A stretch of DNA of 64,000 bases from assembly GCA_029066845.1 (NCBI GenBank), contig JAIEFR010000017.1:120805-184804 (forward strand). The letters run 5' to 3'. The translations under genes and the position numbers were made by a program. Below the pieces are notes generated by a model that ran no database searches, was not told the origin of the DNA, and saw nothing but the letters and a program-made list of their open reading frames with translations. Each line of letters opens with the position of its first letter. Within the stretch, counting starts at the first letter, position 1. This DNA comes from Clostridia bacterium. Its GTDB lineage: Bacteria > Bacillota > Clostridia > Christensenellales > Borkfalkiaceae. This document shows, piece by piece, positions 35,820-41,008 of this stretch.

Positions 35820-38800
35820 TTAATCTTTCCTGTCCTCGCCGCCGAGAACGTCGTCGATATTGTCGGTTACGGGATCTGCGGGAGTGTAGAAGCCGCCGAC
35901 GTCAAACACACGTCCGTCGTCCACGGGCATAGGCGCAACGTAGTTGCGTACTACAGTCCTCGTTGCAGGTGCGGGAGCCGCACTCTGAACAGGCTTCTTA
36001 GTCGTGTCTATCTTGGTGGTCGTGACGGTCGTCATAACCGCGTCGGGAGGCACCTGCGTTGCCGCAGCGTTATCTGTCTTAGCGGTCTGCGCCTCCGCCT
36101 TATCGTTCTTTGACAGTGCCTTCTGTACGGCTTTGTCAACCATCTCTTCCAGCCAGTTCATAGGCGCGCCGCCCTGAACGCTCTGCTCGCCGCCCATACG
36201 CGCAAGCAGGTTTGCAAACTGCAAATCTATTTTGGTCTGAGTAACCTGCTGTTCGGCTTTGAGTGCCGAAATATCCCTGAGTGACTGCTCAGCCCTGAGT
36301 GCGGAAATTTCCGCCTTGATTTCAGCCAGCTCGCTTGCACTGCCGCCGCCAGAAGGCATTGACTGCGCCTGTTGCATTTGCGGCATCTGCTGACCCATCA
36401 TCTGAGGCATCTGCATCATTTGAGGCATCATCTGCGGCATTTGCTGCTGATTCATACGCGCCATTCTCTCCTCGCGGTCTTCGCGACGACGCTGTTCTTC
36501 GCGCTCTCTGCGCTCCTCTTCCTTGCGCTCGCGCTCCTCTTTTTCTTCGAGTCTGCGCTGTTCGGCAAGCTCCTCGCGCTTACGCTTTCTCTTCTTCGCA
36601 CTTGCAATTATGCAGATAAGTATTATAAGGAATAACAGCACCAACGCCGCGATTACGAACCACAGCCAATTGGCTTTGGCAAAGCTGAGCGCGTTTCCAA
36701 AGAACGCCGCCGCGGCGCTTTGAGGCACCGTGTAATCCTTTCTTGCGGACACGCTCTTTATATCGTCAGTTCCGTCCACAAACTCGAAGTTGATTGCATC
36801 AGCACCTGTAAGATACGCTTCGACAATGTACTTTTCGCCGCCCTTCAATACAGGCTCTTCTAAAAGGTTGCCGTTGGTGTCGTAGTATCTGTAACCTATC
36901 GCAACGTCCAGTCCGTTTGCCGTTATCATATTCTGATAATCGGCAAGCGCGTTAAGGGTTGCGCCCTCCTTGCTCTTTAAATTCCAGCCGTCCGTCGAAA
37001 GCACTATCTTACTAATTGACCAGTCAAGGGTTGCGGTAAGCTCGGAGTTATTTATACTGATTTCGTTCTTAAACAACGCCTTTGCAAGCAACTTGCTGGC
37101 AGGTTCGGCGCTTGCAGGCTCAACCCACATATAGTTGCTACTCTTCAACTTAAACGTAACGGTATATGCGCCTGCATTTTTGTTGGTGTAGCCGCTGAGC
37201 ATACTCATAACGTTTGCATTATAGTTGCTGTCAAGGTAATCAACAAGATTGATATAATCGCCCTTGTATACTATATCCTTAGTAACCTGAGGAACTATAA
37301 TTTTTCTTATCAGAACTTCGAATTCAAACGTGCTTGCCGTAAGTACGTACGAAGCTTCGTTGCCCGATTTTAAACTTACGGTTATGGTATACTTACCAAC
37401 GTCTAAACCGTTTACGAATGCAACCAGTTCGGGAGCGTTTCCGTCAAAAGTTTTAGCCTCGGTAAGCGTTCCGCCCGCAACCTTAACTTCGACGCGCGCC
37501 CTTTCGTCCGCCGTTCCTCTTACAACGCTGAGTGCGAAATCAACTAAACCGTACTCCGCGCCGCTGCCCGTAACTTCAACGTTTATTGCCGTCTTTGGAG
37601 CACCCGTCGAGAACGGATATGAAGTCTGCTTGATATTGACTTCAGTCACGCCGCTCTTCATCTGTACGCGCACCGTACCGCTTACGGGCGTGGTTTCAGA
37701 CCAGTTATCCTTTATGTATTGTTTGAGGTCTTCAAGCGTGTAGTCCGTGCCGTTGACGGTATAAACGTAGTCGTAATACTGCGAATAATCCTTTCCGTCG
37801 TCAAACTTTACTGCGGGGAATTCGAATGCGTTGTTACCCACTTCCACCGCCTGCGTACCGCTCCAAGAGTAAGGCAAAGCACGCGCAGTAATTTCCCAAT
37901 TATAGGTTAACGTTACGTTGCCGACCTCATCCGCCGTCGTGTAGTTAGGATTGTTTACCGCGATATACACGTTAGTAGTGTTTGAACCCTGCTGTGTGTA
38001 AGTGTCCGAATTATTATAATTGGTTGTGTAATCTCCTGCCGCAAGGTCAAGCCCCAAACCCTTCATATAGTCGGGCGAAACACGTACGGATATAGGGTCG
38101 CCCGTATACGAGGGCTTATTCGTTGCCGTAATCTTCGTCCAGGTAGCGCCATTGTCTGACGAATACTCCCACTCCGCTTTCGAGAAGTCAAGCTTCTTGG
38201 GAACGATTTTTATCGTAAGCGTGAAAGGTCCGTCCGAACAGGAGTTCTGGTCGCTGTCCTTCGCCTTGATTGCAAAAGTTGCGGTATAAGTATCGACGTT
38301 TACGGCGTTTATAAACGTGCCCGTCAGATCGCCGTCCTGTTCAAGATACGCCGCGTCCGAAGCGCTGCTGAAATCAACCTTTACGTTAGTCAGATCCAGC
38401 GGCTTACCAGTGTACTCCATTGTGTATATGGCGCTTCCGTCGTCATAATCGTTGGCAATGTATGTATCACCGGCAATCGTCCATTTAATATCGTTGCTGC
38501 CGAGGCTGAGCCCCTGCGCGGTTATCTCAAAGTTGTGCGTAACGCTTCCCGAATAATTCTCGCCGTCCGCAACCTTTACGGTAAGCACATAGTTGCCCTT
38601 TGCAAAGCCCGTACCTATCGTTACCTTGCACGAAGTGCCGTTCACCGCAATATCTTTTGCATTTACCGACACGGGAGCACCGCCGTTCAGCGTATAGCTT
38701 ACTTCAAATTTAAGCGTTGTGTCGCTTCCGCACAGCGGCGTAGTCACGTTGAAGTCCAACTCGGTTTTGGTTTTCCTCTGCCACGAGGCCGCGTTTGTAC

Positions 38801-40706
38801 CGGCTGATACGATTACAACCGGCTTTGCGGTAATTTCAACCGCTCCGGGCGCCGTGCCGGAAAACGCGTAAAGCGTATCGTCTTTCAGCGTGAACACAGG
38901 CGTATACTTGCCTACGTTAGTCACCTTTAAGGTTGTGCCGTCAAAGCTGTCCGCACCCGTAGGAACGGCGGGCGTGTTCATAGTAGTGCCGTCGAATCCC
39001 GTAAAGGTAAATTCCTGCGAAGTGCCGTCGTACTCCTCGCTTGCGCTTCCGCTTATCGCAGGATACGCAACCTGCTTTTTGGAAAGATTGAACGCTTCCG
39101 TCGCGTCCACCTTATAGTTCGTTGCGCCGGTACCGTCAACCACTGCCATTGCAACCCAGTTGCCCGTACTGTTAGGACTGTCAACCGCGCTGTTGGGGTG
39201 CGCTCCGTCCTTGTAATACTTGGTTTTAAGTGTGAACGTAGGCTTGCCGGCATTATCCTTATCACACGAAAAGATTTCGCTTTCGTCGCTGAATTTCGCG
39301 ACCGGCAGTCCGTCTTTAGTTTCAAAAGCAATTGTCAGAGGCTGTCTGTTTACCTTGTAAGTAAACGTACGCGCGGCGGAAGAGTTGCTTGCCTTATCCG
39401 ACCAGACGTAATTATTGACCGCAACGATTGTTGCCGTAACCGTATATCCGTCTTCGTTTGCGTTAGTCACGCTCGCGGGCGATAAAGTCATTATTGTATT
39501 ATCGGTATATTTAAGGTTATCGTACCACGAAGGCACGGAATCGGCGTCGCTTATAGTCAACGCGCTTCCATTGTAGCCGGCTGTTATCTGGGCGCCCTGC
39601 GGCGTACTCAACTCTATGGGGTCAATCGTAAAGCTTACGGATTGCGTGTCCTGATCGTCGTCCTTAGAGGTATCCCACACCGCGCCGCAATTACTGTTTA
39701 TATCGAAATACAGCGTATATGTGCCTGCTTCCTTTGCCGTCATTACGTCGCTTGAATTGAGCGGGTTTATGCCGGTTGAAGCAGCTTTATCATAAATTGT
39801 AGTTTTAGTACCCGCCGTGTTGACATATTCCGCTTTGATCATACTCGCACGCACGTTATCGTAGGTGAAAGTAAAGTTATGGTTCTGTCCGTCATACGTG
39901 ATAGAGCTGACGTCCACCTCGGGAACGTCTATAGGCGTAGCCGAAATTTCCGTTGTCATCTGCGCCCAGTCGTTGTAAGTATAAGCGTACGACGAACCGG
40001 CTATAGTTCCCGTGAAAAAGCCGAAATATAACGTGTACTCTTTTTTGCTGCCCGTATTATTGGTCAAAGTATCCGCGTACACCTCGACGGGACTGTACGT
40101 TTTGTTAGAGCCTGCGACCGTAGACGTAATATTATGATGATAACGGTCTACGCCCGCGGGGTTGATATAAGCTGTTTCATTATAGCCGCTGGTACCGACG
40201 TATCCGAATTGCACGTCGGCAGACTTATCCGTATCACCGTAATAGTAAAAATCCGCCCAGGCGTGCGCTACTCCTACGCTATTATCAACTTTTGCGTTTA
40301 TGTACATCGTTTCCGAAATCGATATATCATATTCGGTATAGGCAGGCACGGTTATAACTGCCTTAAAGTGTATATAATTCACAACGTAGCATCGTGTTGC
40401 TACCTTAGTTTTTGTACCCGTTGCCTTTGCCGCGCTCGCGTCAAAGGAACTAACGCCGGCAGCCGCGTTAGGAGCGCCCATACCCAAAAGAGTAAGTCCT
40501 TCTCCCCAGCCGCTGTTAGTATTATAGTTTGTTTCATACTTCTGATAGTTACCTAACCCCGTCCATTCAACGGCGTCGCTTGGTTTAACCGCCGCTTCCG
40601 CGCTTACCGTATTTTTAGGCGAAAAGACCGCGCCGAAAGTAACCGCAGTGCACGCGCAGAGAACAGCTAATAACCCTCCCAAAAAAGTTTTACGTTTAAT
40701 TTTCAT
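35820..40706 (-). CDS. Giant Ig-repeat surface protein with transmembrane anchor and coiled cytosolic tail
   Basis: 1628 residues from the ATG at 40706 (AGGAG lies 8 nt upstream; the ATG six bases earlier is only 2 nt from it). A signal peptide occupies residues 1-39. Residues 40-1340 are beta-rich repeats of bacterial Ig/MBG type, with recurrent YDGQ, YNGS, YDGT, YTGK, YTGD motifs. A single helix near 1343-1369 is followed not by a sortase motif but by a 260-residue cytosolic tail: a KKRKRKR stop-transfer, an Arg/Glu-rich predicted coiled coil, MPQM-type repeats, another predicted coiled coil, then a Pro/Thr-rich end. Likely an adhesin or envelope scaffold linking outside to inside. Function unknown. 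Confidence 0.8.
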   Translation of the reverse strand: MKIKRKTFLGGLLAVLCACTAVTFGAVFSPKNTVSAEAAVKPSDAVEWTGLGNYQKYETNYNTNSGWGEGLTLLGMGAPNAAAGVSSFDASAAKATGTKTKVATRCYVVNYIHFKAVITVPAYTEYDISISETMYINAKVDNSVGVAHAWADFYYYGDTDKSADVQFGYVGTSGYNETAYINPAGVDRYHHNITSTVAGSNKTYSPVEVYADTLTNNTGSKKEYTLYFGFFTGTIAGSSYAYTYNDWAQMTTEISATPIDVPEVDVSSITYDGQNHNFTFTYDNVRASMIKAEYVNTAGTKTTIYDKAASTGINPLNSSDVMTAKEAGTYTLYFDINSNCGAVWDTSKDDDQDTQSVSFTIDPIELSTPQGAQITAGYNGSALTISDADSVPSWYDNLKYTDNTIMTLSPASVTNANEDGYTVTATIVAVNNYVWSDKASNSSAARTFTYKVNRQPLTIAFETKDGLPVAKFSDESEIFSCDKDNAGKPTFTLKTKYYKDGAHPNSAVDSPNSTGNWVAMAVVDGTGATNYKVDATEAFNLSKKQVAYPAISGSASEEYDGTSQEFTFTGFDGTTMNTPAVPTGADSFDGTTLKVTNVGKYTPVFTLKDDTLYAFSGTAPGAVEITAKPVVIVSAGTNAASWQRKTKTELDFNVTTPLCGSDTTLKFEVSYTLNGGAPVSVNAKDIAVNGTSCKVTIGTGFAKGNYVLTVKVADGENYSGSVTHNFEITAQGLSLGSNDIKWTIAGDTYIANDYDDGSAIYTMEYTGKPLDLTNVKVDFSSASDAAYLEQDGDLTGTFINAVNVDTYTATFAIKAKDSDQNSCSDGPFTLTIKIVPKKLDFSKAEWEYSSDNGATWTKITATNKPSYTGDPISVRVSPDYMKGLGLDLAAGDYTTNYNNSDTYTQQGSNTTNVYIAVNNPNYTTADEVGNVTLTYNWEITARALPYSWSGTQAVEVGNNAFEFPAVKFDDGKDYSQYYDYVYTVNGTDYTLEDLKQYIKDNWSETTPVSGTVRVQMKSGVTEVNIKQTSYPFSTGAPKTAINVEVTGSGAEYGLVDFALSVVRGTADERARVEVKVAGGTLTEAKTFDGNAPELVAFVNGLDVGKYTITVSLKSGNEASYVLTASTFEFEVLIRKIIVPQVTKDIVYKGDYINLVDYLDSNYNANVMSMLSGYTNKNAGAYTVTFKLKSSNYMWVEPASAEPASKLLAKALFKNEISINNSELTATLDWSISKIVLSTDGWNLKSKEGATLNALADYQNMITANGLDVAIGYRYYDTNGNLLEEPVLKGGEKYIVEAYLTGADAINFEFVDGTDDIKSVSARKDYTVPQSAAAAFFGNALSFAKANWLWFVIAALVLLFLIILICIIASAKKRKRKREELAEQRRLEEKEERERKEEERREREEQRRREDREERMARMNQQQMPQMMPQMMQMPQMMGQQMPQMQQAQSMPSGGGSASELAEIKAEISALRAEQSLRDISALKAEQQVTQTKIDLQFANLLARMGGEQSVQGGAPMNWLEEMVDKAVQKALSKNDKAEAQTAKTDNAAATQVPPDAVMTTVTTTKIDTTKKPVQSAAPAPATRTVVRNYVAPMPVDDGRVFDVGGFYTPADPVTDNIDDVLGGEDRKD

Positions 40707-40731
40707 AAACATTACTCCTTTGCGGGCAAAT

Positions 40732-40896
40732 AAAAAAGAGCGCTCCTATCAAGGAACGCCCGCTCAAATGTGCCCTTGATAGTTGCGCTACAATTTCCGA
40801 ATAACAAGACTTTCATCAGGAAAAGAAGGGTACACTTATGCCGTTGTAACCTGATGAAAAAATACAGAAAAATAGTGTTATTCAGTTGTAGCGCAC
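40732..40896 (-). promoter_or_regulatory. Structured 5' leader with terminator/antiterminator, candidate riboswitch
   Basis: In the leader of the surface-protein mRNA: P1 is a 10-bp stem (40886-40895 with 40784-40793) extended by 7 bp (40877-40883 with 40799-40805); inside it P2 is a 10-bp stem (40850-40859 with 40811-40820). Next comes CTATCAAGG pairing with CCTTGATAG (40774-40782 with 40746-40754). The latter competes with GAGCG..CGCTC (40761-40765 with 40738-40742), which is followed by six U at 40732-40737. That is the layout of a transcription attenuator. It matches no riboswitch class I can name. Confidence 0.6.
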
Positions 40897-40900
40897 TTAT

Positions 40901-40929
40901 ATTTTATCACGGGAGTTGTTTTTTTACAA
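40901..40929 (-). promoter_or_regulatory. Surface protein promoter
   Basis: Minus strand TTGTAA, 17-nt spacer, TAAAAT. Predicted start at about 40894, so the transcript begins at the base of leader stem P1. Confidence 0.65.
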
Positions 40930-41008
40930 TACTTTTCGACAAACTTTTCAATAATAGATAATTTTACTTTTTCTGCCACAATATGTTGTGGGTCGGGCGA
41001 CATTTTAT

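Follow-up and report, generated by a model that had tools for sequence, protein, structure and literature searches.

What kind of element lies between the promoter and the ribosome-binding site of a giant surface-protein gene, and how might it control that gene? The window analysed here is a 64,000-nt stretch of DNA from a Clostridia bacterium; all coordinates are positions within it, and the leader and its gene lie on the minus strand. The structured leader (40896-40732) is directly preceded by a promoter with a −35 hexamer TTGTAA (40924-40929), read from the sequence, and a −10 hexamer TAAAAT with a TG extension just before the first stem, P1 (40901-40906), placed by the sequence and by the −10 position in relatives. 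A terminator forms the end of the leader, and the gene starts 25 nt downstream, behind a ribosome-binding site AAGGAG (40715-40720). Its reading frame (35820-40712) encodes 1630 residues counted from 40712; the ATG at 40706 suits the ribosome site and the paralogues better as the start. By eye, the N-terminus of the protein is signal-peptide-like, and a charged tail follows the single C-terminal membrane segment; no Pfam match to the protein reaches a family cut-off. The first-pass annotation had proposed a structured leader before an envelope-protein gene. This picture stands, since promoter, terminator and frame are present and the leader RNA (40929-40713) folds with −71.1 kcal/mol (z = −6.0; 0/200 dinucleotide shuffles as stable), with a z of −5.6 for the sub-stretch 40905-40745.

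The leader consists of two enclosed stems, a small hairpin, a linker and a terminator. P1 is formed by TGCGCTACAACT (40884-40895; fold and covariation) and AATTGTAGCGCA (40784-40795; likewise fold and covariation), a helix paired in 97.6% of the cells of a 110-member alignment. It had been described as an interrupted stem of 17 bp; the one interruption is there, with 20 pairs in the fold of 40905-40745. P2, predicted by folding exactly as claimed, has 10 bp between TTTCATCAGG (40859-40850) and CCTGATGAAA (40820-40811) and a 29-nt loop. Within this loop, TACA (40845-40848) and TGTA (40831-40834) form a small hairpin, P3 (90.5% of cells paired, n = 110), around the loop ACGGCATAAG (40835-40844), which contains a conserved GGCA. 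The 3′ strand of P3, backed by covariation and partner swaps, is common to P3 and a pseudoknot in which the P3 loop and 3′ strand (GCATAAGTGTACCCTT, 40841-40826) pair with the linker behind P1 (AAGGGCACATTTGAGC, 40777-40762). The antiterminator 5′ strand CTATCAAGG (40782-40774) overlaps this linker, and its partner CCTTGATAG (40754-40746) overlaps the terminator. The terminator had been given as GAGCG/CGCTC with six U; the U run is at 40737-40732, and the stem is better written as GGGCGTTCC (40761-40753; covariation) with GGAGCGCTC (40746-40738; helix paired in 96.0% of cells, n = 110). Finally, GCGGGC in the antiterminator loop (40758-40763) is complementary to GCCCGC between the U run and the ribosome site (40722-40727), a possible extra pairing in the read-through RNA.

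The leader belongs to no named class of RNA in Rfam. At curated thresholds, Rfam 15 identified only four tRNAs in the whole window, none of them in the leader, and it had no match in 20 of the 26 class-level loci. Loose searches returned ten matches for the window leader (best E 0.49) and five for a distant relative, L200 (best E 0.27), all below gathering scores, which agrees with the failure of the first-pass annotation to name a class. No description of the family turned up in the literature searched, which included PMC8040213, PMC8632094 and PMC11109978; supplements, most subscription journals and preprints were outside this search, so a mention in a supplementary table is possible. As far as our searches reach, the family is apparently undescribed.

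The first-pass annotation had described the leader of one gene only. A second close copy is present in the genome of the window, and the element proved to be a multi-copy family of Clostridia. Covariance models were built from 13 leaders (R1), 69 members (R2) and 110 members (R3); the R3 alignment drew on 100 of 126 sources (left out were L011, L012, L030, L067, L079, L081, L082, L090, L091, L093, L097, L099, L103, L108, L116, L118, L121, L173, L219, L221, L222, L224, L225, L226, L229 and L230). Seven antisense matches of a palindromic hairpin, among one set of 80, were removed before counting. The leader was detected in 53/93 genomes of the genus (R1, E <= 0.01), 175/398 genomes and 13/18 genera of the family (R1, 1e-5), 78/396 genomes and 30/142 genera of the order (R2, 1e-5), and 53/391 genomes and 33/222 genera of the class (R2, 1e-4; 5 of the 53 from the window's own order). 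These samples overlap with each other and with that of the phylum, their thresholds differ and the E-values are rough. In the phylum sample (n = 398, some same-class genomes included), the sole match was the window's own genome (R3, 1e-4); this sample doubles as a specificity control.

The scans of family, order, class and phylum scored no more than 7-8 candidates in each genome and so give minimum copy numbers. Eleven chosen genomes were searched more deeply (R2, E <= 0.001): G194 had 12 copies, G190 11, G012 8, the window's genome 7, G013 6, G025 4, G132 3, G072 2 and G106 one, and G085 and G019 had none. Copy numbers from 0 to 12 thus indicate a patchy distribution even within the genus, where 40/93 genomes had no match, two of them also blank in the deeper search. 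A nucleotide search with the window leader matched 20/93 genomes. No plasmid matched the leader and no viral contig matched either of two exact patterns. Two unannotated phage records did match, one with chromosomal-looking frames by eye and the other with an integrase-like frame. One exact 22-base loop-pattern match in an unrelated proteobacterium (L137, a Billgrantia endophytica record) is probably due to chance. Five of the 26 matches listed by the nucleotide search (L024, L025, L026, L028 and L034) were rejected as members, being chance-like by eye; L026 resembles a T-box leader and has only the ribosome-site region in common with the window leader.

Covariation was the check by which the first-pass annotation had proposed to judge the structure. 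Compensatory changes keep P1, P3 and the terminator in the 110 leaders, and the structure is thus more than chance. Of the cells in these helices, 96.0% are paired, compared to 75.2% in shuffles, and 537 are double-changed, compared to 137.5 in shuffles (0/500 as high), counts that lean towards the three helices because the 110-member alignment was fitted to them. Sliding one partner by 1-3 columns reduces pairing to 29-55%. In a structure-free MAFFT alignment of the first 13 leaders, double changes occur in 10/22 predicted pairs of P1 and the terminator, and pairs of these two helices take the nine top places when column pairs of the 69-member alignment are tested unguided. Cognate and swapped strands were also compared in the 110 sequences (10000 permutations, a test made lenient by relatedness). 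The mean energies are −17.18 versus −8.54 kcal/mol for P1, −16.86 versus −10.04 kcal/mol for the terminator and −11.11 versus −7.38 kcal/mol for the antiterminator, with 0/10000 permutations as good in each case, and −7.44 versus −4.98 for P3; the proposed antiterminator switch stem is thereby backed across the family. The most conserved unpaired bases in the part enclosed by P1 are AAUA at the P1/P2 junction and GG[C/U]A in the P3 loop.

The promoter defines where this RNA should begin. The start had been placed at the base of P1, in agreement with the sigma-A-like promoter of the window (−10 at 40906-40901) and with the relatives: the best −10 match starts 10 or 11 nt upstream of P1 in 79/110, a TG extension is found in 75/110, and a −10 (at least 5 of 6) together with a −35 (at least 4 of 6) in 62/110, versus 2/109 stretches within downstream genes, a lenient control, since A+T content is usually lower in gene bodies than in leaders of this kind. 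With the promoter just before P1, the RNA should start about the foot of P1. This start bears on a ribosome-dependent attenuator with a leader peptide, which would share the overlapping-hairpin logic of trp-type attenuators. An RNA that starts at P1, as the promoter suggests, has no space for a preceding ribosome site, and a short frame with a ribosome site before it occurs in only 15/110 leaders by raw count; we regard a leader-peptide mechanism as very improbable.

A called gene follows the element in 104/110 cases and is lacking in six. The distance is 10-60 nt in 74, 61-150 nt in 12, farther in 17 (8 behind a tandem copy) and 0 nt in one, in a count that has no random control and uses a gene caller that prefers near and long frames. 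Eight pairs are tandem, with gaps below 150 nt, and in each of them the second copy has, judged by eye, a promoter-like sequence of its own. Such pairs, with a terminator for each copy and a loop/linker complementarity that could act between copies, would suit a small RNA acting in trans, in which case the terminated RNA of ~165 nt would be the main product. Against this stand the 74/110 3′ ends placed 10-60 nt ahead of a start codon and the better match, on average, of each member to its own linker than to those of others, and we think such a role improbable. In the tandem leaders (L071, L100, L107, L109, L114, L115, L206 and L210) the second copy lies about 50-100 nt downstream, and in six of the eight (not L206 and L210) its P3/linker type and terminator are unlike those of the first. 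Three loci from the order sample (L223, L224 and L225) have no clear gene nearby; both copies of L223 and that of L225 are alike past the terminator. These may be stand-alone RNAs or lie ahead of unrecognised genes.

The pseudoknot, overlooked in the first-pass annotation, is present in none of the alignment models. Its cognate strands average −17.95 kcal/mol in the 110 sequences, versus −13.86 for swapped strands and −14.86 for the best of 10000 permutations; the corresponding values for the 69-member version are −15.70, −13.20 and −14.52. The strands co-vary, as exemplified by UACCC/GGGUA, UAUCUC/GAGAUA, GUGUCC/GGGACAC and UAGUACCU/AGGUACUA. For the pseudoknot, the cognate strand ranks first or ties in only 7/110 rows (best tenth in 49), and for the antiterminator in 14/110 (best tenth in 65), since strands of related members cross-pair. 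Each of the two pairings beats all 40 shuffled linkers in only 44/110, and a column count of the pseudoknot in a hand-made register (65/69 rows, most off by ~1 position) gave no support. In the window the pseudoknot has an energy of −17.0 when restricted to the loop strand and −18.8 when unrestricted; such duplex energies ignore the remaining fold, and some duplexes include P2 bases.

The pairings compete with each other in nearly all members. At least 4 bases of the 12-nt core of the pseudoknot strand pair with the 5′ side of P3 in 109/110. By duplex prediction, 3 or more linker bases are common to pseudoknot and antiterminator in 110/110, and 4 or more bases to antiterminator and terminator in 107/110, in line with the attenuator logic of mutually exclusive stems described for the window leader. 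A further good pairing, between the linker end and the bases behind the U run, is found in 30/110 (−8 kcal/mol or better; GCGGGC/GCCCGC in the window), with a cognate mean of −6.35 compared to −6.05 for the lowest of 5000 permutations. Comparison of the relatives thus shows, at the level of sequence, the P1, P3 and terminator helices together with overlapping complementarities of the P3 loop and 3′ strand with the linker and of the linker with the 5′ strand and loop of the terminator. As the pseudoknot connects P3 with the antiterminator, the element can be read as a switch. We conclude that this is a real and widespread attenuator-type leader family in Clostridia.

Sequence comparison and duplex prediction place an exclusive terminator/antiterminator pair between promoter and gene, and the leader is likely to be a cis-acting transcription attenuator that works by strand exchange. 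Transcription would begin at the foot of P1, and P1-P2-P3 would fold first. The emerging linker would then be captured by the loop and 3′ strand of P3 to form the pseudoknot, no antiterminator could form, and the terminator would halt the polymerase about 165 nt from the start; this OFF state is probably the default. If P3 were held closed, the linker would pair with the 5′ part of the terminator, resulting in read-through and expression of the gene. In some members, the antiterminator loop may additionally pair with bases ahead of the ribosome site in this ON state. Whether P3 is closed or open would depend on some ligand, protein or physical cue.

One version of such a cue would dispense with a partner altogether, with temperature, ions or the speed of the polymerase tilting the balance between P3, pseudoknot and antiterminator. 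The estimated energies in the window are indeed close (−18.8 for the pseudoknot, −15.7 for the antiterminator and −16.8 for the terminator), and covariation keeps the complementarity more than it keeps particular letters. The conserved AAUA junction would be superfluous in a partnerless sensor, and we consider this version unlikely.

Strand-exchange attenuation can be compared with several known systems. Cyclic-di-GMP riboswitches of Clostridia control adhesins. Among the riboswitches and attenuators with intrinsic-terminator platforms, these (PMC6366702) too are 5′ leaders with exclusive antiterminator and terminator, found before several genes per genome. Surface-protein targets and tandem copies are further points of likeness; the present family differs in having no Rfam match and in that 4/6 carrier genomes tested have no GGDEF match. 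T-box leaders have a long first stem, followed by an antiterminator with an AAGGG-like sequence and a terminator. The present family resembles them in all three respects, but its targets are not amino-acid genes and the T-box covariance model matches neither the leader nor the 20 class loci, and a T-box identity was rejected. PyrR-type attenuators have three states, in which anti-antiterminator, antiterminator and terminator overlap. Three overlapping structures are also found here, but a pseudoknot takes the part of the anti-antiterminator, the hairpin that supplies its strand is a competitor too, and the targets have no pyrimidine theme. Processive antitermination elements (EAR, put and LoaP sites) affect distant terminators or involve the LoaP protein; with regard to these, the leader has no Rfam match. 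In the trpB motif RF04312 (PMC11109978), a hairpin with an antiterminator strand precedes a terminator, as in the present family. Its score with one class member (20.7 bits, E = 1) is at chance level and far under the cut-off of 59, and structure and targets are different.

The genes behind the leaders encode mainly proteins of the cell surface. By a crude heuristic, 77/103 distinct downstream proteins within 150 nt are lipoprotein-like (46), signal-peptide-like (18) or membrane proteins (13); the remaining 26, with none of these features, are mostly small proteins from genomes outside the family. Pfam and PHROGs scans covered the first 400 residues of 98 of the 103. Among the 25 commonest of 48 Pfam families are BspA-type leucine-rich repeats (14), Listeria-Bacteroides repeats (7), zinc ribbons (3) and LytTR response regulators (2), and single occurrences of, for example, subtilase, CotH, acyltransferase, AMP-binding and GDSL lipase. 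The top three among the 25 commonest of 114 PHROGs families have no assigned function, others being tail, tail-fibre and Ig-like; we did not accept these matches as proof of phage genes. Within those 98 proteins and 25 commonest Pfam families, no metabolic theme hints at a ligand. In the genome of the window, at least two further giant-type genes are under such a leader (L009 and L066). L009:286-5139 encodes a 1618-residue protein that is 37% identical to the giant protein over 1422 aligned positions, and the L066 protein starts with MKIKRKTF, as does the giant protein.

The expression logic is riboswitch-like; membership among riboswitches requires a ligand. In the strict form of this reading, P1-P2-P3 would be a small-molecule aptamer that fixes P3 and so sets the attenuator. 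The compact domain with its conserved unpaired AAUA and GG[C/U]A, the tandem copies and the terminator as expression platform are all consistent with it. The conserved unpaired bases are few, P3 loop and linker co-vary, the downstream genes lack a metabolic theme and cyclic-di-GMP fares poorly as a general ligand, and an aptamer is therefore a somewhat doubtful possibility. No GGDEF match was found in G013, G025, G190 and G194, which carry 4-12 copies of the element; G000 and G012 have both, and G085 and G019 have GGDEF and no copy. As GGDEF and the element do not track across genomes, cyclic-di-GMP is unlikely as a general ligand, and we rejected it as the general signal, bearing in mind that the genomes are drafts. 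The cyclic-di-AMP synthase domain DAC occurs in 8/8 genomes tested and discriminates nothing.

The same attenuator may instead be set by a protein or a trans RNA that binds every copy at its P1-J1/2 or P3 region and so switches a surface-protein regulon, an option that we rate about as likely as the aptamer, at less than even odds. One common RNA precedes many unrelated target genes, the letters ACAA..AAUA of P1/J1-2 are conserved, and single genomes carry many copies (the window's own 7, G190 11 and G194 12). Both the aptamer and the bound regulator are special cases of strand-exchange attenuation, and our confidence in the aptamer overlaps that in the attenuator.

A second, DNA-level layer was noticed around the promoter. 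A palindrome, CACAATATGTTGTG (40977-40990, no strand assigned), lies upstream of the promoter and also before other promoters in the genome of the window. The pattern CACAACATATTGTG, with at most one mismatch, has 24 distinct places in that genome, compared to one match for the backward control pattern; they include the window site, L009:13 and 5197, L066 and L239-L258. At 17/24 sites the palindrome is followed by one common promoter cassette, and three of the 17 cassettes (window, C10:13 and C15:130759) lead to an attenuator leader. The recurrence of palindrome and cassette, three times ahead of the leader, may mean that these genes answer to one DNA-binding regulator. In six cassette genes (L246, L250, L252, L253, L256 and L258), a tract of 9 to 12 G is found a few codons past the start. 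Five of these frames were read; two stay in frame up to a signal-peptide-like stretch and three meet a stop shortly past the tract, a pattern that resembles slipped-strand phase variation in a family of surface proteins. The L253 fragment has no similarity to the giant protein of the window. Contigs C1, C3, C6, C10, C15, C16, C18 and C21 start no more than about 150 bases from a palindrome/promoter site. Assembly breaks at near-identical cassettes would give this pattern, and the family probably has more genes than were counted.

Taken as a whole, the evidence leads us to propose, tentatively and with slightly more doubt than conviction, that the leader represents a class of sensory RNA that is common in Clostridia and has not been described before, a self-contained strand-exchange switch whose hairpin and downstream linker are rivals for one strand. 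It is unusual for a leader family to reach 12 copies in a genome (G194) and to covary strongly yet have no Rfam entry, and its 110 aligned members are a ready set for finding a new signal or regulator. If the proposal is true, one cellular signal would set the repertoire of large surface proteins genome-wide, beside a DNA-level, poly-G switch that acts on a promoter-sharing family of surface genes. In uncultured Clostridia, the leader family may account for the choice of large surface proteins on display.
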